Source: a virus
Direction: 5' to 3' (one strand)
IMG/VR virus record: IMGVR_UViG_3300030406_006891
Coordinates: 1 to 20,528 of that record
DNA: 20,528 nucleotides
How positions within the stretch are numbered: the first letter of the stretch is position 1; each line of letters opens with the position of its first letter. Below, piece by piece: positions 3,661 through 17,536 of this stretch. The notes beneath the pieces were generated by a model. The model was not told where the DNA came from. It ran no database searches and saw only the letters and a list, made by a program, of their open reading frames with translations. A program made the translations under genes and the position numbers.

Positions 3661-3926
3661 TATTCAGGTACAGTTTGGGATGCTAAAAATGTTTGGTAGT
3701 TTGCTTTTATTTCATCAGTCATAACCGCATTGAATTGGGCTAGAACTAATGGATCAGATATTGTTGAGACGTCTGCATCTGGTTGAAGGACGTAACGATG
3801 AAACGATGAAGAAATTTCTTGTCCATCTTCAATAATCTGATTCCTTTCACGGATTTGAATAAAATAATGATCTTGAAATGCTACTGTTTCACATTTATCA
3901 ACAATAGTGTTTTTAGTTAATGCCAT
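3660..3926 (-). CDS. Small fibre-associated phage protein (cassette 1)
   Basis: This 88-aa protein follows the 285-aa fibre gene after 3 nt. It starts MALTKNTIVDKCETV and has an IREDG-like hairpin with GQEISSSFHRYVLQP (36-50), a pattern I associate with small hypothetical proteins next to fibres in marine phages. The C-terminal third is helical. It is not clearly similar to the two XkdW-like proteins downstream but occupies the equivalent place in its cassette. Fibre chaperone or minor virion protein are both possible; neither is proven. Confidence 0.7.
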   Translation of the reverse strand: MALTKNTIVDKCETVAFQDHYFIQIRERNQIIEDGQEISSSFHRYVLQPDADVSTISDPLVLAQFNAVMTDEIKANYQTFLASQTVPE

Positions 3927-3929
3927 AAT

Positions 3930-4787
3930 TTACGCTACATAATAGGTTATGGAAAAACCACCCCAAGAACCTGAACTTAAGGTATTAAAAGTGGCACCAG
4001 CCCAATTTGAATTTGCAGGTTGATAATTAACATGTATAAGACTATTTCCAGACGATATAGCAGTAAAAACATTTTCTTGATTAATTTTAGTATCCCAAGT
4101 CATCCACAAACTCCCAACATTATAATTACCTACACCCGCAAATGGTAATCCTTCTACTGTAATACTTCCTGAAAGTGATCCAAAGGTTGTTCTTGATGAA
4201 TAAGAAAACATTATATGACATATATTACCAATTCTGGTGTATCTTGCAGTTGATGAACCAACACCACTTGTAAATCCTGATAAAGTGTTGCCCCCTGACT
4301 TTATAACTGGTGTCCAATTGCCTTCTTCATAGTGGTCAAAAACTTCAGAAGAAGGTGTATAACTTGTTGAATGGGTTTGTGAATTACTAAAATCAATCCC
4401 ACCACCACTTTCAATTTTTAGGTTTTTACCTTCTATTGACATTAAATTGTTAAATCCACCAGCACCATCCATCCCTTTAAAACGAAAACCACCTTTTACA
4501 TCAGTTATTCTTTGTCCTACACCTGAAGAACCCTCAATTGATATTCCTTGTATTTGAGATATATCGTCATTATAACTAGGAATTCCTTCATCATTTTTAG
4601 TTGTTCCTTTGAATTTTAATGTTCCTAAAACACCATGTTCATCTGCATTAGCAGTATTGTGCCTAAAATCTATTGTTGGTGCAGTAAGCCATGATCCTGA
4701 ATACGCTGTTGAAGACGTATCTTCTATTTCAAGTGTAGGATTACCTTCTTTTGTTAAATCAATCTTTTCGTTTGTTATTACTGTCAT
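3930..4787 (-). CDS. Tail fibre with C-terminal receptor-binding-like domain (cassette 1)
   Basis: This is the largest fibre in the window (285 aa). The N-terminal part (1-130) contains beta repeats such as TLEIEDTSS and MSIEGKNLKIESGGG, which look like a fibre shaft or virion-attachment part. The C-terminal domain begins with DHYEEGNWTP (151-160) and contains ARYTRIGN (181-188) and VEGLPF (211-216). This series is characteristic of the receptor-binding tip of many short phage tail fibres. It overlaps the 90-aa gene by 4 nt (ATGA). Role in host adsorption is inferred from this domain and context. Confidence 0.8.
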   Translation of the reverse strand: MTVITNEKIDLTKEGNPTLEIEDTSSTAYSGSWLTAPTIDFRHNTANADEHGVLGTLKFKGTTKNDEGIPSYNDDISQIQGISIEGSSGVGQRITDVKGGFRFKGMDGAGGFNNLMSIEGKNLKIESGGGIDFSNSQTHSTSYTPSSEVFDHYEEGNWTPVIKSGGNTLSGFTSGVGSSTARYTRIGNICHIMFSYSSRTTFGSLSGSITVEGLPFAGVGNYNVGSLWMTWDTKINQENVFTAISSGNSLIHVNYQPANSNWAGATFNTLSSGSWGGFSITYYVA

Positions 4788-5056
4788 ACAATTACCAAAG
4801 TTCCATTAACAGTAAGAGTTCCAGTTGATGCTATGGTTACTGGCCCTGCCATAACTGCGTTTTCATTTGCGGTTATTTCTACTGCACTATTTATGCTTGC
4901 AGGATTTCTAAATATACCGCTTTGAGTTGCACTTATATGACCCGTCAGGCCACTAGAATCTGCTTGGTTAACAGTTATTCCGTTACTACGAATTTCTGTT
5001 ACGTTTTCGGTGGTGCTTTGAACACCATCCATTACTGCTCCAAGTCGTTTTCCCAT
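4784..5056 (-). CDS. Small beta-rich virion or fibre-like protein
   Basis: This 90-aa protein overlaps its upstream neighbour by 1 nt and the fibre gene downstream by 4 nt. The C-terminal segment, NENAVMAGPVTIASTGTLTV (64-83) then a short hydrophobic end, closely follows the pattern AGPITV...GxxVTV... found at the end of many marine phage fibre or decoration proteins. The N-terminal half has a charged helix and a polar stretch. It likely belongs to the distal tail structure. I cannot name a specific function. Confidence 0.65.
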   Translation of the reverse strand: MGKRLGAVMDGVQSTTENVTEIRSNGITVNQADSSGLTGHISATQSGIFRNPASINSAVEITANENAVMAGPVTIASTGTLTVNGTLVIV

Positions 5057-6818: not shown

Positions 6819-8476
6819 TAGGTTTTTTCCAAAAGTGAAATAGTTCCGTCACCTACAAATTTGGTTCTTTGGTTGTCCAAATCGTAATGAATTTCACGAA
6901 CCAAACATTGGTTGCAGGTTACGTTATCTTGAATTCTTGTAAAATTTAAATTATCCCCAGGCAAAATGTCTTTATTGATTTGATCAATAGTCACACTAAT
7001 TTTTAATTTTTTCCTATTATCCAAAATTGCTTGAAGATAATTTAACTGCTGACCCAAGGCATCGTGCATTTGATTGACTTTAATTTCTGTTCCTGAAGGG
7101 ATATTAGAATTTATTACTGACAATTCTTTTTCAGATTCAATAAATTGATAGTTGTCAGTCGCCAATGTTCCTTGCTCATTGCGTGTTTTAAATTTACAAG
7201 AAACCTGTTTAACAATATTAAAGTCATAAGATGTGCTAACTATATCTCTTTCATCCAAAATTGTTGCTGTCGGCACGTTTGCTTTATCTATAATAAATGC
7301 TTTAGGACTTACACCACCTGCGGTTGTTATTTTTAAATAAAATTGATAGTTGGTGTTTTTACATATTTCATCAGCAAATTCCTCAAAGTCAGTATCTTTA
7401 GCATTTGTCGCCATTATCCCTGCTAGTACATCATCATCTGAATTGGGTGCTTTTGTATTATTAGCAGGTGAAAACCATAAATCTAAAATTTCATAAATAT
7501 TTTTGTAAGTTGTTCTTGCCTCATACAACAAAACGCCATCCCAATCCGTTGTACTTTGGTAAACTTTAGAACTGACAGTAAATTGTGAATTTGAATTAAC
7601 ACCATCAATGTAAATATTTGTTTCGTAATCACCACTACCGTAGCCAGGATTTGGGTACCAGTTTGAAAATCCTATAAAAGCATATTTACCACTATAACCA
7701 TCCTGCCATTTACGATCCTTTGGAATTATTCTTTTGGATGATCCACGACTTAAAACTGCATAAGGTGTATTTAATCCTTTATTTATATATGCACGTTGTG
7801 CGGATCCTCCTGAGATACCACTGTCAGTTACGACTTGAAGCGCAGTAAAAGTCGCACTACTGCTGTCAACAGGTATGGTGCATGTATTACCCGATACTGA
7901 TAAAACTGTATAAACTACATCATTTTCAACAGGACTTTGCGCACCACCTGAAGTTATTTTTATTTGATCACCTGCTTTTAAATTTTCCTCTAGTGTGCCT
8001 GAACCCATTTCAACATTTGAAATAGTAATGGTGGTTGTACTACCTGCTGTAAAACTGGCTATGGGCCATGTTCCAACTGATCTGTTATTTGCTAACGATT
8101 GATGCCGTGCATACTCATATAAATCAAAAACAATTAAATCAGCATTTATGTTTTTTACTACTGAATAGCCGTACCACAAACCTAATTCCTTTGATGTCGG
8201 CTCACCAATATCAATTGCGGTTAAATACTGCTGATCAGGATTTGTAATTAAACTATTATAATTTGTTGCATACGAAAATGGATGTGATGTTTGGTCGGGT
8301 CGGTTAGCAATAGCCATTTGGCCTGCTTGCAATTTTATCCAACCCTCTCCTGACCATTTTATAGTCGGTAGTGAAACTATATGCGGTTCATAATAATTAA
8401 AACCTTGATAGCCCTCAGTTGACATATAGTAATCAGTCGAATTAACTGTCATCTGTACCGTTACAAGTTGGGTCAT
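6818..8476 (-). CDS. Tail-tip / baseplate-like protein, function unknown
   Basis: This 552-aa protein starts at an ATGA overlap with the tape measure stop, the usual place of a distal tail or hub protein. The N-terminal part (1-135) and C-terminal part (220-552) are globular and aromatic-rich. Residues 145-218 form a small beta module (AGDQIKITSGG, VVYTVLSVSGNT) that looks inserted between them. The C-terminus has DILPGDNLNFTRI (about 507-519), CNQC and VREIHYDLDN segments that recall hub-type tail proteins which end in a beta domain. No peptidase or lytic motif is visible. The protein is probably part of the tail tip complex, but I cannot name a family. Confidence 0.74.
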   Translation of the reverse strand: MTQLVTVQMTVNSTDYYMSTEGYQGFNYYEPHIVSLPTIKWSGEGWIKLQAGQMAIANRPDQTSHPFSYATNYNSLITNPDQQYLTAIDIGEPTSKELGLWYGYSVVKNINADLIVFDLYEYARHQSLANNRSVGTWPIASFTAGSTTTITISNVEMGSGTLEENLKAGDQIKITSGGAQSPVENDVVYTVLSVSGNTCTIPVDSSSATFTALQVVTDSGISGGSAQRAYINKGLNTPYAVLSRGSSKRIIPKDRKWQDGYSGKYAFIGFSNWYPNPGYGSGDYETNIYIDGVNSNSQFTVSSKVYQSTTDWDGVLLYEARTTYKNIYEILDLWFSPANNTKAPNSDDDVLAGIMATNAKDTDFEEFADEICKNTNYQFYLKITTAGGVSPKAFIIDKANVPTATILDERDIVSTSYDFNIVKQVSCKFKTRNEQGTLATDNYQFIESEKELSVINSNIPSGTEIKVNQMHDALGQQLNYLQAILDNRKKLKISVTIDQINKDILPGDNLNFTRIQDNVTCNQCLVREIHYDLDNQRTKFVGDGTISLLEKT

Positions 8477-11025
8477 CCTGCAAGTACCGTAGCAAGTTCA
8501 GGTTGTCCAGATCGATTTGCATTATTGACAACTGAACTAATGTATTGGTGTAAAGGAAGTTTTACTTGGCCTTCCATATCAAGGTAAACATTAACAACAG
8601 TTTGACCACCACCTAGTTCATGATTTGGAATAATTGTTCCGTTGCTAGGAGGTGTAAATAACTCTGGGCCTTTTTCACCGACAAGTATGGTTCTGCCACC
8701 GCGAACTGATCCACCATCTGCGAAAGGTAAAATCTTTTTTACTGTATTAACTACTTTATTAATTGTATTGGTAACTGGATTACCACTACCACCACCACCT
8801 ATATTTCCTATGCGATCAATAGCATTTTTAAGTGCATTAATTGGAGAAGCCAAAGCATCAATTGCACTTTTTAAAGCTATTAAAGGTGCTTTTAAAACTT
8901 CTAAAGGACTTTTTAGTGATTGTAAAAATGTACCAACCTTACCCAATATTCCTGCTACAAATTTTAAGGCATTAATTAAGGGTCGTAATAATTTTAACTG
9001 TTCTCTTAATAAAGGAACAAATACTTCAAATAATGGTTTTAATTCAACTAAAATTTCTACTAACGATTCAATAACTGGTGCCAGTAAATCTATTATGGGA
9101 TCAATTAATTCGAATAAAGCATCAAATACTTTTCCTAAAGCCTCTTGTACTTTTTCGTTGGAAAGAATCAAAGCCATCATTCCTTCTTGAATACCACCTT
9201 CAGCAAATGCTTTACCAACATTCATAGCACGTTGACCTGACTTACCACCTGCTTTGGCTATTGCAGAACCATGTTTACCGACAAAATCACCAACTGCTCC
9301 TGCACCTGCCTTAATACCTGTGACCATGGTAGTCATAAAATCAGCCATATCTGCTAACTGTGTTTTGTTACCCGATAATGACTTACTAAACTTGCTTGTA
9401 ACTGCATTTAATTTAGTCGCAGTATCTAAAATAAATTGGTAAGTATTTTGTTCATCTATAAGTTCTTGATTTACTTCAATGGTCATTTCAGTAAAACGAC
9501 CTTGTGCTTCTGCGGTTTTATTAGTTAGATCAACAACTTCTAACATCGCATCAACGGTTAATATGGTTTCTTCGGTTATTGTTTTACTTTGTGTTTGATA
9601 TTTACCGCTTAGATTTACGACTTCTAGGTGCTTTTCTTCCCACTCTTGTGCTTTTTTTATTGCCTCACTAGCTAACCTATCAACGTTTACATACTGTTGG
9701 GCTATGTTAATTGTATGTTCTTCAACACCAACTGTATTATCTTTTAGCGTTGATGTTAAATCGACAACTTCAAGAACATGGTCAACGACCTCCAAGGTTA
9801 CTTCAGAAAATCTTTGATATTCTTGACCACCTTGTTTTGTTAAATTTACAACTTCAACCTGTGCTTCTTCTAAAGCAATAGTGTGTTCTATTAAATTACT
9901 GTATTCCTTGTTGACTTCGCCTACTAATTCAACTACTTCAAGTTGAACTTCTTTTATATCACTTACTGGTTTTACTGTTGCTTCAAGATTCTGTTTAGCT
10001 TTTGCAACATTTTTATCTATTTCTGCAAAATCTATTGCCGTGGTACCTGTTTTTAAATTAAGTATTTCTTGTATTGCGGTTATTTTTTCTATGTTTTCAA
10101 GTCTTTCTTTATCTGTACGCAAAGCATTTTTAGTTATGTTTTCTCTTTCGTAATGTTTTAAATTTTGATTTTTTAATGCTTGTGCCTGTTTTTTAAAAAT
10201 TACATTAAGTTCCTCATTTCTTTTCAACAGTGCATTAACTTCTTTTTGTAATGTTTTGGTGCTTTTTTCCATTAAGGAAAAAGGATCGCCAGTAGTTGCC
10301 AAAAGAAATAACCGTTTTAAACCTAAAAAAGCTTTATTGACTATTGGCAAAACAACTTCGCCAAATATAACTCGAAATGTTTTTGATAATTTATTGATCT
10401 CGTCGTTAAAAGCGGCTGATTGGTCTATGGCGTCTTGAGTTAAAACACCGCCGTATGCTTCTAGTTGCTTGCCTAATAATCTTAAACCACTTTCACCTTC
10501 GTTTAAAAACGGCAACAGTTCTGCACCTGCACCACCAAAAAGTCTAACAGCCGTTTCAGCTTTTTCTGTTGGGTCTTTAAGATTTTTAATTCCAGTTGCT
10601 ACCTTAAAAAGTATTTCTTCAAGTGGTATGGCAACACCATTGACATCTGTAATCTGTACGCCTAGCTTTTCAAATGCTTCTGCTTGTACTTTGGAACCAT
10701 CAGTAGCTTTGCCTGCATTTATGGCTAATTTCTGAAGCGACTTATTTAGCTTTTCAGCACTAACTCCTGACTGTTCACCTGCAAATTGGAATTTTTGCAA
10801 TGCTTCTGCACCCAAACCAACTTGCAAAGATACTTTGTGAACCCGATCAGCAAAATCGAGCATTTTGTTAGTAAATGCGGTAATGGAACCAACAGCAAAT
10901 GCACCTGCAATAACTCCTTTTAAACTTCCAAAGCCTTTTTCAAGAGCCTGGACGTTTCGGTTTACTGCATTAAATGCCTTACCTGTTTTATCGGTTGCGG
11001 TTATACCGACATTTAAATTAGCCAT
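8473..11025 (-). CDS. Tape measure protein
   Basis: This 850-aa protein sets tail length and is injected with the DNA during infection. The N-terminus (ITATDKTGKAFNAV) is typical of lambda/HK97-type tape measures; a hydrophobic segment is at about 35-52, and hydrophobic helices recur at about 635-700. Long coiled-coil regions occupy 250-350. The C-terminus has FADGGSVRGG (768-777) and VGEKGPELFTP (782-792), the standard tape-measure signature. Residues about 362-528 hold a 28-residue repeat with the core LEVVDLT. Its ATG follows directly after the TAA of the frameshifted chaperone frame. At 850 aa the tail would be of the order of 1.5 Å per residue, about 130 nm, if the usual siphovirus ratio applies (inference). 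Confidence 0.93.
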   Translation of the reverse strand: MANLNVGITATDKTGKAFNAVNRNVQALEKGFGSLKGVIAGAFAVGSITAFTNKMLDFADRVHKVSLQVGLGAEALQKFQFAGEQSGVSAEKLNKSLQKLAINAGKATDGSKVQAEAFEKLGVQITDVNGVAIPLEEILFKVATGIKNLKDPTEKAETAVRLFGGAGAELLPFLNEGESGLRLLGKQLEAYGGVLTQDAIDQSAAFNDEINKLSKTFRVIFGEVVLPIVNKAFLGLKRLFLLATTGDPFSLMEKSTKTLQKEVNALLKRNEELNVIFKKQAQALKNQNLKHYERENITKNALRTDKERLENIEKITAIQEILNLKTGTTAIDFAEIDKNVAKAKQNLEATVKPVSDIKEVQLEVVELVGEVNKEYSNLIEHTIALEEAQVEVVNLTKQGGQEYQRFSEVTLEVVDHVLEVVDLTSTLKDNTVGVEEHTINIAQQYVNVDRLASEAIKKAQEWEEKHLEVVNLSGKYQTQSKTITEETILTVDAMLEVVDLTNKTAEAQGRFTEMTIEVNQELIDEQNTYQFILDTATKLNAVTSKFSKSLSGNKTQLADMADFMTTMVTGIKAGAGAVGDFVGKHGSAIAKAGGKSGQRAMNVGKAFAEGGIQEGMMALILSNEKVQEALGKVFDALFELIDPIIDLLAPVIESLVEILVELKPLFEVFVPLLREQLKLLRPLINALKFVAGILGKVGTFLQSLKSPLEVLKAPLIALKSAIDALASPINALKNAIDRIGNIGGGGSGNPVTNTINKVVNTVKKILPFADGGSVRGGRTILVGEKGPELFTPPSNGTIIPNHELGGGQTVVNVYLDMEGQVKLPLHQYISSVVNNANRSGQPELATVLAG

Positions 11026-13698: not shown

Positions 13699-16074
13699 TT
13701 AGCTTACTGTAATATCCTGAATTGCAGTAAACGACTCAGCATGTCGCACCATCACATCGACATCGTAGAAAAACGAAAGTCGTGTGGCTCCAGTGGTTGA
13801 ATTGCTGTAAGGATCAACCAAAACATCCAAGGATCCCCATTCGCCAATAAAAAGTTCTGACCAGTTACCAAAGATCAAAGCATGGCAACTTCCAGAGGTA
13901 GAACCTTTGGTTAATGTTGAAGGAACATTGGTTGATGCCATCATTCTGTATCCCATCAAATCATTGGGATCGGTAAGAATGAATTGACCGAAATTCGATG
14001 CACGATCAATCGTCATCATTTCTGCACGCACACTAGGAGTCGTACACCATGCAAGATTCCCTGTTAATGCGTTAGCCGTATCCTGTGTTCCAAAAACATC
14101 AACTGTTTTGGCCCAAGTAATGGCTCCACCATCGGTGCCAATTGCAACATCCCCAATACCTGTGGTTTGCAGGATTCCAGTTGGCTCATTTGACCCACCA
14201 CCGTTTATGGCAACTGTGTCAACAGCCTGTGCCAATTGGTCGAGTACGTCATTTCTGACAACCTGCTCAACGGAAGGATCTGACTGTGCCATTAGTTTCC
14301 GAGAAACGTCGATGTAACTGGAAACTGATTTAGGAGACATTGAAATCTGCCTAAACGTGGGAGCGCCCTCAGTCGGAGCTGCGTTTTCGGCTACCCAGTA
14401 AACAGTGGTTTTAGCATTCAGTGCAGGAATCTGAACATCACCTTGCAAGCCAGTTAAAGATGAAGCTCCAAGTTCGCGTGTTACCATTCTTGCCCTGAGT
14501 GCATCCACAAATTGAGCGCCCAAATGGTCGGTTCCCACAAGGTTCCCACCTGCGGTAGCAGTTCCAACAGTCAGGTCACGTTTTTGAATCCTGATGTCGT
14601 TAGGAAGATAAAACCCACGATTTCCACCACGGTTTTCTTTTCCTGTTTTTTTGGCTACGGCCTGTGATGCTTCAAGCTCCAATCCCGCATTTGACCAATC
14701 ACCTGACAAAGAAGCCTCCACTGCTCTCAGCATGGAATAATTCCTAGCTTCTTTAGGAGTCATGTCGATATTGTCCGGCTTAATTTCGACCTGCTTTAAG
14801 GTCTTTAAAACTTCTTTGCTAAATTCTTCAACAGATCGGCCTTCATCAATGAATTGTCGTGCCATTTCCTGCTTATTTAATTCAGCGCCAATTGATTCAA
14901 TTTCACGAATGCGATTAACTTCTGTTTTTCGCACTTCATTCAGTGTTTGTTCCTGAACTTCCATTTTCGGTTTCCTTTCAATAATGGAATTTTTAACTGG
15001 TATTGTTTCAGCACTTCGTCCAACACCCACTGACTGATCGGCGGCGATACTAACCATGCTCACCTCGTAAGGTTCCCAATCAACAGCTCGAAAAAGTGCA
15101 TCATTTGAATCGTTATCTTTTTCCATTTTATGAATTCTGTATCCAACACTTACTTGATTTCTAATTCCGTCTTTAACATCCTGAAAAATCTCATCTGCCG
15201 TAGCCGATCTGCCAAATCGAACTATTGCTCTTCCGACTTTATCAGAATCAATTGTTGCCCGTTCAACTACACCAATAACAGGCTCTTGTTGGTGGTTAAT
15301 TAGTAATGGTGCTTTATTATTCAACCTGCCAAGGCGAACACTTTCACCACCATGACTTAAAACCTCCGTTCCAAAACTTCTTTGAACTGGTTCTTCTGAA
15401 GAAAATGCTAATTGAACTGTTCTGTTATCTTCATCTATTTTTTGACGATCAAGAAGAAATGTTCTGTATTTAATATCATCATTTAAAAATGATCTTTCTT
15501 CTTCTTCATCATTTTCTCTTTCTTCTTCATCTTCTTCATGCCCTTCTCTTTCTTCTTCATCTTCGTGGCCTTCTCTTTCATCATCTTCATCATAAGATTT
15601 TTCTTCTTCATCCTCATGGCCCATTCGTTCAACTTCTTCAGATTTGCCAAATTCAATTATGTAAGAATCATCTGTTTCAGTTACGTTTTTAATATGTCTT
15701 TCTTCAAGGTTCATTTCATCACCCCTTTCATCAATAGAATTTAATCTTCTAACTATTCGGTTGGCAAAAGACCTACCACTGTTGCCACCCCATAATAGCC
15801 AAGCAATTTTTCCTGCACCTGGATAATCTGGATGCTTTGGATTACTATTTTTTGGCACATCTAAATCGACTTCATGCCTATCAAAATAAGCCTTCATACG
15901 TTTAACCGTATCAAAACTTAAATTATCCCTTCTTCTTAACTGATTGGCCCTTGCTACACCAACCTGAGTTCCACCTCTGCCGTATTGTTTTCTCCACTTC
16001 AACCCTAATGTGGCTTCACGAGCCATACTAACAGTGGGTTTGGTGTTAATTTGTACGCCTTTATATCTCGGCAT
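13699..16074 (-). CDS. Fused head protein: conserved N-terminal domain, U35-type prohead protease, HK97-fold major capsid protein
   Basis: One 791-aa open frame combines several parts. Residues 1-115 form a conserved phage domain of unknown function (RGGTQVGVARA at 33-43, TVKRMKAYFDRHEVD at 56-70, GKIAWLLWGG at 88-97). Residues 152-194 are an acidic repeat region. Residues about 200-365 are a prohead protease: LLINHQQEP with likely catalytic H261, NQVSVGYRI with S309, and WEPYEVSMVSIAAD (333-346). Residues 371-485 are a helical scaffold-like delta segment, and 486-791 are the major capsid (RDLTVGTATAGGNLVGT, TVYWVAENAAPTEGAP). The protease should cut itself and the delta segment away during maturation. 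It overlaps the portal by 14 nt with AGAGGA upstream of ATG. Internal starts may yield shorter forms. Confidence 0.93.
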   Translation of the reverse strand: MPRYKGVQINTKPTVSMAREATLGLKWRKQYGRGGTQVGVARANQLRRRDNLSFDTVKRMKAYFDRHEVDLDVPKNSNPKHPDYPGAGKIAWLLWGGNSGRSFANRIVRRLNSIDERGDEMNLEERHIKNVTETDDSYIIEFGKSEEVERMGHEDEEEKSYDEDDEREGHEDEEEREGHEEDEEERENDEEEERSFLNDDIKYRTFLLDRQKIDEDNRTVQLAFSSEEPVQRSFGTEVLSHGGESVRLGRLNNKAPLLINHQQEPVIGVVERATIDSDKVGRAIVRFGRSATADEIFQDVKDGIRNQVSVGYRIHKMEKDNDSNDALFRAVDWEPYEVSMVSIAADQSVGVGRSAETIPVKNSIIERKPKMEVQEQTLNEVRKTEVNRIREIESIGAELNKQEMARQFIDEGRSVEEFSKEVLKTLKQVEIKPDNIDMTPKEARNYSMLRAVEASLSGDWSNAGLELEASQAVAKKTGKENRGGNRGFYLPNDIRIQKRDLTVGTATAGGNLVGTDHLGAQFVDALRARMVTRELGASSLTGLQGDVQIPALNAKTTVYWVAENAAPTEGAPTFRQISMSPKSVSSYIDVSRKLMAQSDPSVEQVVRNDVLDQLAQAVDTVAINGGGSNEPTGILQTTGIGDVAIGTDGGAITWAKTVDVFGTQDTANALTGNLAWCTTPSVRAEMMTIDRASNFGQFILTDPNDLMGYRMMASTNVPSTLTKGSTSGSCHALIFGNWSELFIGEWGSLDVLVDPYSNSTTGATRLSFFYDVDVMVRHAESFTAIQDITVS
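14965..14980 (-). promoter_or_regulatory. Internal ribosome binding site for a capsid-only product
   Basis: Inside the fused head ORF, AAAGGA lies 8 nt before an in-frame ATG (14962-14964, residue M371: MEVQEQTLNEV). This point is exactly the boundary between the protease and the delta/scaffold segment of the capsid. Initiation here would give a 421-aa delta-plus-capsid protein without protease. Seen: the site and its position. Inferred: use. Confidence 0.5.
15493..15621 (-). repeat. Acidic low-complexity repeat (E/D-rich linker)
   Basis: This encodes residues 152-194 of the fused head protein, where units such as EREGHEDEEE recur (GHEDEEE at 152-158, 169-175; GHEEDEEE near 178-185). The DNA is a run of near-repeated TTC/TTCT/CATC triplets (plus strand). 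It lies between the N-terminal domain and the protease, so it is probably a flexible linker; its length may vary between relatives through slippage. Confidence 0.8.
15715..15730 (-). promoter_or_regulatory. Internal ribosome binding site for a protease-capsid product
   Basis: AAAGGGGTGATGAA directly precedes the in-frame ATG at 15712-15714 (residue M121: MNLEERHIKN), with 7 nt between GGGG and ATG. GGTGAT also matches the extended anti-Shine-Dalgarno complement. It lies between the N-terminal domain and the acidic linker, so initiation here would give a 671-aa linker-protease-capsid product. The match is as good as that of most true starts in the window. Use is inferred. Confidence 0.55.
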
Positions 16075-17536
16075 CGTCTTCCTCTTGAACTGCTATTGTA
16101 ACGGCATCTTCTTTTTGTGGTAAACTGATTCCCAACTGTTCAGCTAGTTCATTTTCACGTTTAATTTTTTCAAATATTTCTTGCAAGTCTTTTCCTTTAC
16201 TTGATGCAATATCAGTTAATGACTCAACACCCATTTCATGTGCGACTTTATGAGCATTAATTTCCTTTAAAGGATCAACATATGACCAACCACGGGGAAC
16301 CCAAGAAACATTTTCAAACTTTTCAATTTTCTGCATCGGTAACTGTAATTCACCTGAAGCAATCGACATTCGTAGCCAATTATTAAAAACAGGTCGGCAG
16401 AAATTGTTAACCATGAAATTTTGCAGTGTTTGCCAAATAATTCTTTCTTCCATCACACCTGCTCTAATTGAACTAAAATTGACCGATTCTAAATCAGAAC
16501 TTAGTGCGTTATATGAAACACCCAAACCTGAAGAAATGCTTCTTAAGATCGATTTGACAAAAGTAGGGAAGGCATTAGTCGGATGATTGGGAGTAAATGG
16601 TTCAAATTTTACTCCGTCAGGTAATTGCTGAAAGGTTCCAGGCTGAAATTCAGTGATTATGTTGCCTGCTTCATCCCTGTCAACACCAGTGTAGCCCTGC
16701 GAATCCTGTGAGGTGAAAAAACCCATAGCACTTGAACCAATTCTAGAAGCAACTAACTCGCTTTCATGATACTGGTGTAGCATTTCCAAACCACGAAGTG
16801 CTGTATTCATCCAAGGAATACCACGACTTTGCCCTGGCCTTTCCATGATGTATAAATGGATTATTTCATCAGGTGATACTCTTTCAGTTGGTTTGGTAAA
16901 CGGATCCGTGACGTAGTTATTATTTGGCTGATATTGCAGTTGATGGTAGGCAACTGGCTCACCAAATCCATTTTGTTCAATCGACATTCGGATCACTGCA
17001 TTTTCATTAAGAAATTCATTTTTCTTAAGGTCGAACCAATCACCTTCCATGATAAATAAACTAAAGTTAAAAGGATTGTCAGGTGTTCTAACCATGCGTA
17101 TAAAAACCTCACCATCACGAGCCAAGGTTTCAATAACTAATCTTTGAATGTCCAACCAATTTAATCTGCGATCTGCTGATGCAAATCTTTTTTCTTCACC
17201 CCATTTTTTCCATGCTTTTTCTATGACTTGAATATCTACTGTGTCAAAAGATCCATCTTCACGTTTTGCTTTTGATTGTAAAATAATTCCATCAGAACCA
17301 ATCACGTTGGATTTGCACATGGCTAAAAACCGCCTTGCGTAAACATCGTCATTGCAAACCTGACGAACTCTGTTTCGCATGACCTGCAAATTGTTAATTA
17401 ATTCTTGATCCGCACTTAAATCGGTGCCTCGCCAACCATGAAATAAATTATCGTATTTCGCAGAAGCAAAATTTCTTTGAAAATACCTTTTTGGGGCAGT
17501 CGGTTTATCACGTTTAAAAAAATCTAAAATTTTCAT
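16061..17536 (-). CDS. Portal protein, lambda gpB-like family
   Basis: This 491-aa protein forms the dodecameric ring through which DNA enters and leaves the head. It belongs to the lambda-type portal family: MRNRVRQVCNDDVYARRFLA (53-72), then NVIGSDGI, DIQRLVIETLARDGEVFIRM (129-148), MERPGQSRGIPWMNTALRGL (231-250), GLGVSYNALSSDL (337-349) and FSSIRAGVMEER. Length is close to the family's usual size. The C-terminus is acidic. It overlaps the connector-like gene by 4 nt (ATGA) and the head ORF by 14 nt. Confidence 0.95.
   Translation of the reverse strand: MKILDFFKRDKPTAPKRYFQRNFASAKYDNLFHGWRGTDLSADQELINNLQVMRNRVRQVCNDDVYARRFLAMCKSNVIGSDGIILQSKAKREDGSFDTVDIQVIEKAWKKWGEEKRFASADRRLNWLDIQRLVIETLARDGEVFIRMVRTPDNPFNFSLFIMEGDWFDLKKNEFLNENAVIRMSIEQNGFGEPVAYHQLQYQPNNNYVTDPFTKPTERVSPDEIIHLYIMERPGQSRGIPWMNTALRGLEMLHQYHESELVASRIGSSAMGFFTSQDSQGYTGVDRDEAGNIITEFQPGTFQQLPDGVKFEPFTPNHPTNAFPTFVKSILRSISSGLGVSYNALSSDLESVNFSSIRAGVMEERIIWQTLQNFMVNNFCRPVFNNWLRMSIASGELQLPMQKIEKFENVSWVPRGWSYVDPLKEINAHKVAHEMGVESLTDIASSKGKDLQEIFEKIKRENELAEQLGISLPQKEDAVTIAVQEEDDAEI

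Follow-up and report, generated by a model that had tools for sequence, protein, structure and literature searches.

In phage Lambda, gene C encodes a protease with a downstream product, Nu3, nested in the same frame. The two are said to have been described as overlapping genes by Shaw and Murialdo in 1980, a work cited in PMC8508860 (Shaw & Murialdo 1980). Fusions of a prohead protease with the major capsid protein are another described arrangement, which in its form without the N-domain is broader still than the gene analysed here (VP882, phiHAP-1, Bas97, FoX3 and R4C are among the examples). In the fusions of the NCBIfam family NF045541, scaf_prot_MCP2 (VP882, phiHAP-1, ECO1230-10/Bas97, R4C, FoX), as in our locus, one frame encodes an S78 protease and then an HK97 capsid protein, the portal gene lies immediately upstream and an internal ATG follows the protease. 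Yet the members that we examined lack both the N-terminal domain and the acidic repeat that precede the protease in the gene described below.

The window, i.e. the whole stretch of 20,528 nucleotides analysed here, is a 20.5-kb virus record in its own right. Its first-pass annotation had proposed that one frame joins an unnamed domain, an acidic repeat, a prohead protease and a major capsid protein. This was confirmed: the frame starts with ATG, encodes 791 residues without internal stops and recurs in about 100 relatives (Table 1). Pfam recognises Peptidase_S78 (PF04586) at residues 253-349 (E 3.8e-7) and, further along the frame, Phage_capsid (PF05065) at residues 517-786 (E 1.4e-39); PHROG 617, 'major head protein', spans residues 204-789. 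The protease residues H261 and S309 are invariant in a six-sequence alignment. The curated cut-off of NF045541 is not reached by the window frame, which scores 161 bits against 525, over residues 213-434 only. Since the portal gene lies upstream, genes for a head-tail joining protein and both terminase subunits are neighbours and tail genes lie downstream, we take this region to be a tailed-phage head module.

Table 1. Features of the fused head gene in the window (residues are numbered from the first Met of the frame).
Feature	Position	Strand	Basis or remark
Whole open frame	13699..16074	-	N-domain, acidic linker, S78 protease, HK97-fold major capsid protein
Overlap of portal gene and window frame, 14 nt	16061..16074	-	Portal gene at 16061-17536
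N-terminal domain (NTD), residues 1-118	15721..16074	-	Alignment, model; five helices, net charge +14 in the window phage
SD-like AAAGGGGTGAT ahead of Met121	15718..15728	-	Duplex energy -13.2 kcal/mol
Putative internal start codon Met121 (MNLEERHIKNV...), protease-capsid product	15712..15714	-	Relatives with the RHI motif
Acidic repeat, residues 151-197	15484..15624	-	Highest acidity among 81 linkers
Prohead protease domain (S78), residues 213-353	15016..15438	-	Pfam, alignment
SD-like AAAGGA ahead of Met371	14973..14978	-	-5.6 kcal/mol
Putative internal start codon Met371, capsid protein with delta (scaffold) domain	14962..14964	-	Family conservation
Predicted delta/scaffold domain, residues 371-508	14551..14964	-	Model, R4C homology; mostly helical
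Predicted mature major capsid protein, residues 509-791	13702..14550	-	Homologous to solved R4C virion chain

We showed that this gene is not a peculiarity of one contig. Scans of viral contigs found the N-domain, the protease and the capsid protein in one open frame at 87 of 170 loci, with 16 more cut by contig ends, and about 100 relatives, both isolates and IMG/VR contigs, keep the order NTD, acidic linker, S78 protease, HK97 capsid protein. A tblastn search with residues 1-126 retrieved the three-part gene in Roseobacter phages CRP-406, 811, 821, 822, 823 and 831 and in Synechococcus phages S-CBS1 and S-CBS3, where it is annotated 'major capsid protein'. Complete genomes with the one-frame architecture include those of CRP-406, CRP-811, CRP-821, S-CBS1 and S-CBS3, and no second capsid gene was found in the four complete genomes searched for one (CRP-821, CRP-406, CRP-811 and S-CBS1). 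Because some 100 loci share the one-frame order, the fusion is a widespread gene type, and the sequencing error or missed frameshift that had been considered as its cause is ruled out. The CRP-822-type roseophages (CRP-406, -811, -821, -831), S-CBS1 and S-CBS3 have architecture and gene neighbours identical to those of the window, but are 32-40% identical to it overall and, where the window has its acidic repeat, carry different linker modules. The paper on the CRP-822-type family uses the name 'capsid' for this gene, and nowhere in its text do 'protease', 'fusion' or 'fused' appear (PMC12629253). Annotation pipelines, too, name such genes, of 600-970 residues, 'major capsid protein'. The architecture is of a known and widespread kind; the nested reading of it proposed below was not found described in the literature searched.

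It had also been asked whether relatives carry the parts as ordinary separate genes with the same start sites, and this holds in part. The separate capsid genes of relatives start with MSE, MSD or MSEI behind a Shine-Dalgarno (SD) sequence, at a comparable distance to the capsid core. In two loci the protease-capsid fusion is a gene of its own, but there the N-domain rides on the portal: it forms the portal C-terminus (L150:2396-4333 and L158:2393-4333), directly 5' of a protease-capsid gene with a strong SD (-12). One candidate for a natural split between NTD and protease (L142, 3998-6342) was rejected as a frameshift, real or due to assembly; since its second frame carries the tail of the NTD, it is no evidence for separate parts. 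In a bacterial contig from an Akkermansiaceae MAG (L172:4675-6850) the protease-capsid part is split over several frames, and this is probably a decaying prophage.

The limits of the shell protein can be estimated from the marine siphophage vB_DshS-R4C, whose solved virion chain (PDB 8gta) comprises residues 362-629 of a 629-residue fused frame, i.e. the C-terminal 268 residues, and starts at the equivalent of window residue ~509. R4C shares the capsid fold, but lacks the NTD and is 30% identical to the capsid part of the window. When modelled from Met371, the window protein shows a delta domain made of helices and, behind it, the HK97 fold (pLDDT 79), and the AlphaFold2 model matches 8gta (E 8.6e-21) as well as HK97 head structures. 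Given the R4C homology and this model, the delta and shell parts would divide as in Table 1.

How is such a frame used? The first-pass annotation had reasoned that, if the frame is translated whole, protease and NTD would be attached to each capsid subunit. That all subunits carry these parts is probably wrong, since conserved internal start codons favour a short capsid product. To evaluate Met371, we aligned the protease-capsid linker across 82 dereplicated frames and compared SD duplex energies with those of synonymous codon shuffles. Met occupies this column in 72 of the 82 relatives (88%), against 14-52% in the adjacent linker columns; a 68% column lies six residues downstream, and none exceeds that value until 22 residues downstream. 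The remaining ten comprise four with Met shifted by one or a few residues and six with Val. All six Val codons are GTG, an outcome with a chance of 0.00085 given codon usage, in about three lineages only. A start-capable codon (ATG or GTG) is found at or near the position in 82/82 relatives. The SD energy at the column is -6.53 kcal/mol against -4.07 after synonymous shuffling (Wilcoxon p=2.5e-9 at the family level, which like our other p-values for internal starts is optimistic because relatives share ancestry), and the next two Met columns of the alignment show no excess (p=0.41 and 0.30). The SD test is sharp only once a specific start column has been aligned: pooled linker Mets differ weakly from synonymous shuffles between protease and capsid (-0.73 +/- 0.20) and show no excess in linker 1, between NTD and protease (-0.17 +/- 0.13).

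Ahead of the delta domain, SD energies reach -11.1 kcal/mol in CRP-821, -9.4 in CRP-406 and -9.1 in CRP-811; the cyanophages S-CBS1/3 and S-LBS1 keep the Met without an SD. Protease-capsid fusions devoid of the NTD have an ATG at this same position, directly behind the protease, in 11 of the 11 examined, with SD-like signals in VP882 (-9.5), R4C (-9.5), Persinger (-8.0) and phiHAP-1 (-6.7), and also in RcRhea and Bas97. In the E. coli phage HeidiAbel_Bas97 the predicted precursor start is codon 217, MEKILRDAAGNLV. In the window taken alone, the SD ahead of Met371 is within the synonymous expectation (p about 0.2), and mRNA structure at this codon is low, yet not below that of synonymous shuffles.

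A second putative start lies at Met121, just behind the NTD. Met stands just ahead of the RHI motif in 34 of the 40 relatives that have the motif, and the SD energy at this position is -7.58 kcal/mol in these relatives, against -5.30 expected (p=9.7e-5). In the window alone, the amino acids predict about -9.5 of the -13.2 kcal/mol at Met121 (p about 0.1). There is, moreover, little SD signal at gene starts throughout the window (202-20462): the mean is -3.2 kcal/mol, against -3.8 at internal ATGs, and the first ATG of our frame, at -6.0, ranks fourth best among 27 genes. Since gene starts are this weak, SD is not diagnostic in the window and the motif at Met121 proves little there; the host of this phage may use SD weakly. 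The case for internal starts is that of the family, and the SD evidence of the window is weak by itself.

One might argue that the peptide alone gives rise to the SD-like signals, its acidic and Lys/Glu-rich linkers being encoded by purine-rich codons, and that Met is kept because the protein needs it, for example at a processing site. The large share of the Met121 duplex explained by amino acids alone agrees with this, as does the lack of excess among pooled linker-1 Mets. But synonymous shuffling controls for the peptide, and a residual of -2.5 kcal/mol at the Met371 column and of -2.3 at the Met121 column persists; nor would a protein reason predict that Val substitutes are always GTG. We regard this explanation as improbable. 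A stronger contender is a polyprotein, in which translation of each subunit begins at Met1, NTD and protease stay attached during assembly, and all front parts are lost by proteolysis. About 100 loci have an uninterrupted frame, the SD of the first ATG is fair, and proteolysis would equally account for the absence of the front parts from the mature R4C shell. Yet a polyprotein does not explain why every relative has ATG or GTG where delta begins, nor the local SD excess or the second start behind the NTD. By our own estimate, moreover, if several hundred subunits each brought along ~370 additional residues, these would occupy much of the prohead. A polyprotein is therefore rather unlikely in our view, if less so than a by-product of the peptide.

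We thus favour, as the probable reading, a nested head gene in which one frame gives three products and most capsid protein comes from Met371. Conserved start codons and SD-like signals inside the frame make it most economical to regard the full-length chain as a minor product. Initiation at Met1 would yield a scarce chain comprising NTD, protease, delta and capsid; initiation at Met121 would give small amounts of a protease-capsid protein; and initiation at Met371 would supply the bulk of subunits, as capsid protein that brings a delta (scaffold) domain of its own. Since the longer forms would co-assemble with the shell through their capsid part, protease and NTD could reach the prohead in cis and in few copies. 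The protease would then excise itself together with the linkers and delta, so that the shell keeps the capsid domain (~509-791) while the NTD is set free in the head lumen. The NTD is then probably a minor passenger of the head and not part of every subunit. Initiation at the internal codons, product ratios, cleavage sites and the fate of the NTD are all things that we infer.

The likeness to Lambda C/Nu3 lies in the conserved in-frame internal start codon, which in our case is known from sequence comparison. The differences are that the nested product would here be delta plus capsid protein, the role of scaffold falling to the delta domain of that protein, that the protease is of the S78 type and that an extra module stands in front. 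We found no direct precedent for internal starts in capsid genes in the literature searched. If the nested reading is true, the annotated capsid start, mass and stoichiometry are wrong in many marine and enterobacterial phages, and a simple rule, one frame with two internal starts, accounts for the dosing of protease and cargo into the head. The starts could be examined in a culturable relative, the E. coli phage Bas97.

The acidic repeat, which the first-pass annotation noted behind the N-terminal domain, is not a conserved element: what is conserved is an acidic linker only. Linker 1 is acidic as a rule, with a mean net charge of -16 over 82 frames, but its modules differ: Tudor-like in CRP-811, DUF5824-like in CRP-821, PYPNEHAARL in S-CBS1 and the acidic tract in the window. 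This tract (residues ~151-197) is 62-72% Asp and Glu and is encoded by a 27/30-bp tandem array at 15496-15617. Over 40 residues, the window reaches 72% Asp/Glu, whereas the next of the 81 linkers reaches 53% and the median is 38%. The repeat is best described, from these comparisons, as a local expansion specific to the window within a generally acidic linker. Charge compensation between a basic NTD and an acidic linker finds no correlation across relatives (Spearman -0.09, p 0.44). Elsewhere in the window, a LEVVDLT-like motif recurs in the tape measure protein (8473-11025, minus strand; region 9523-9941), with DNA copies spaced by 231, 84 and 84 nt.

The NTD is, as had been proposed, a separate, conserved domain without an assigned role. 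Its motifs RGGTQVGVARA, HEVD and GKIAWLLWGG are present and conserved, and the structure prediction that had been suggested gave five confident helices over ~100 residues (AlphaFold2, pLDDT 89.8, pTM 0.81). None of its 84 members searched gave a consistent match in Pfam or NCBIfam. Residues 1-120 of the window have a single partial match, to a stretch of phrog_2859 ('unknown function'); no PDB sequence matches the domain, and the best hit of a fold search against PDB has E 3.0. In BFVD there are 58 model matches, to phage proteins, and the named ones are mostly head proteins (many bear the names prohead protease, XkdF or portal).

Whether the domain occurs alone or always beside proteases had been left as a question, and we can answer that it also occurs apart. 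Among the loci its partners are S78, XkdF-type and ClpP-type proteases as well as portal C-termini, and in Vibrio phage 1.123.O it is a small separate gene among head genes. Stand-alone copies of ~105 residues are found on the chromosomes of Mesorhizobium, Rhizobium, Sphingomonas, Henriciella, Xanthomonas and CPR bacteria, with Rhizobiales, Sphingomonads and Xanthomonas among the groups. They are 42-57% identical to the window NTD over ~100 residues and number one or two per genome in the six genomes checked; at the six loci inspected ordinary genes adjoin them and no head genes were seen. In a poorly resolved tree the chromosomal copies cluster and the fused copies need several changes. The copy in phage PaBG falls among the cellular ones, and its gene lies among replication genes. 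The NTD is hence a real, uncharacterised domain family of cells and phages, widespread although it has no family model, and culturable phages such as the Roseobacter phages CRP-822 or CRP-406 lend themselves to a test of its function.

What might this domain do in a head? A position inside the prohead, in line with the earlier proposal, is plausible. Several observations suggest an association with nucleic acids. Xanthomonas copies end in a tail rich in Lys and Ala that weakly matches the histone-H1-like HC2 (E 0.005), and at the Xanthomonas loci L215, L219, L234, L239 and L248 (~3900-4990) the NTD continues into such a long H1-like tail. A 1073-residue phage protein in one frame (L055:3281-6499) joins the NTD and weak S78/XkdF matches to Tudor-like and ferritin-like (Dps-type) domains. 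Other partners are, as seen above, phage-head proteins. The NTD may thus be a nucleic-acid-associated protein of the head interior, but we hold this tentatively, as a minority view, because in most fused relatives the NTD lacks a basic character (the mean net charge is about +1 there, against +14 in the window).

Nearly as possible, if doubtful, is an assembly factor that brings the protease-capsid precursor to the portal or orders the scaffold. The NTD sits at the junction of portal and protease genes, fused to either, and small separate genes occupy the same place in 1.123.O. But copies on chromosomes outside prophages and the PaBG copy among replication genes would need a different function, and many phages with protease-capsid fusions have no NTD on this gene. 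One might also speculate that the NTD is a host-takeover effector, carried in the head, ejected with the genome and derived from a cellular gene of similar function. The stand-alone chromosomal copies in the six genomes and the grouping of the PaBG copy are in line with such an origin, and the NTD does sit on lumenal partners (portal C-terminus, protease), but ejection and a similar function of the cellular copies are putative, and we consider an effector unlikely. Less likely again is the composite scenario of a DNA-associated helical domain shared by tailed phages and bacterial chromosomes, of which nesting with the protease ahead of the capsid gene and internal starts would bring few copies into the head, where maturation would release it and from where it would enter the next host along with the genome.

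In Vibrio phage 150E35-1 (L013:2848-3228) the NTD copy has an N-terminal extension ending in INE/AKSYKPT, which resembles T4-type capsid-targeting sequences, cut after I/L-x-E.
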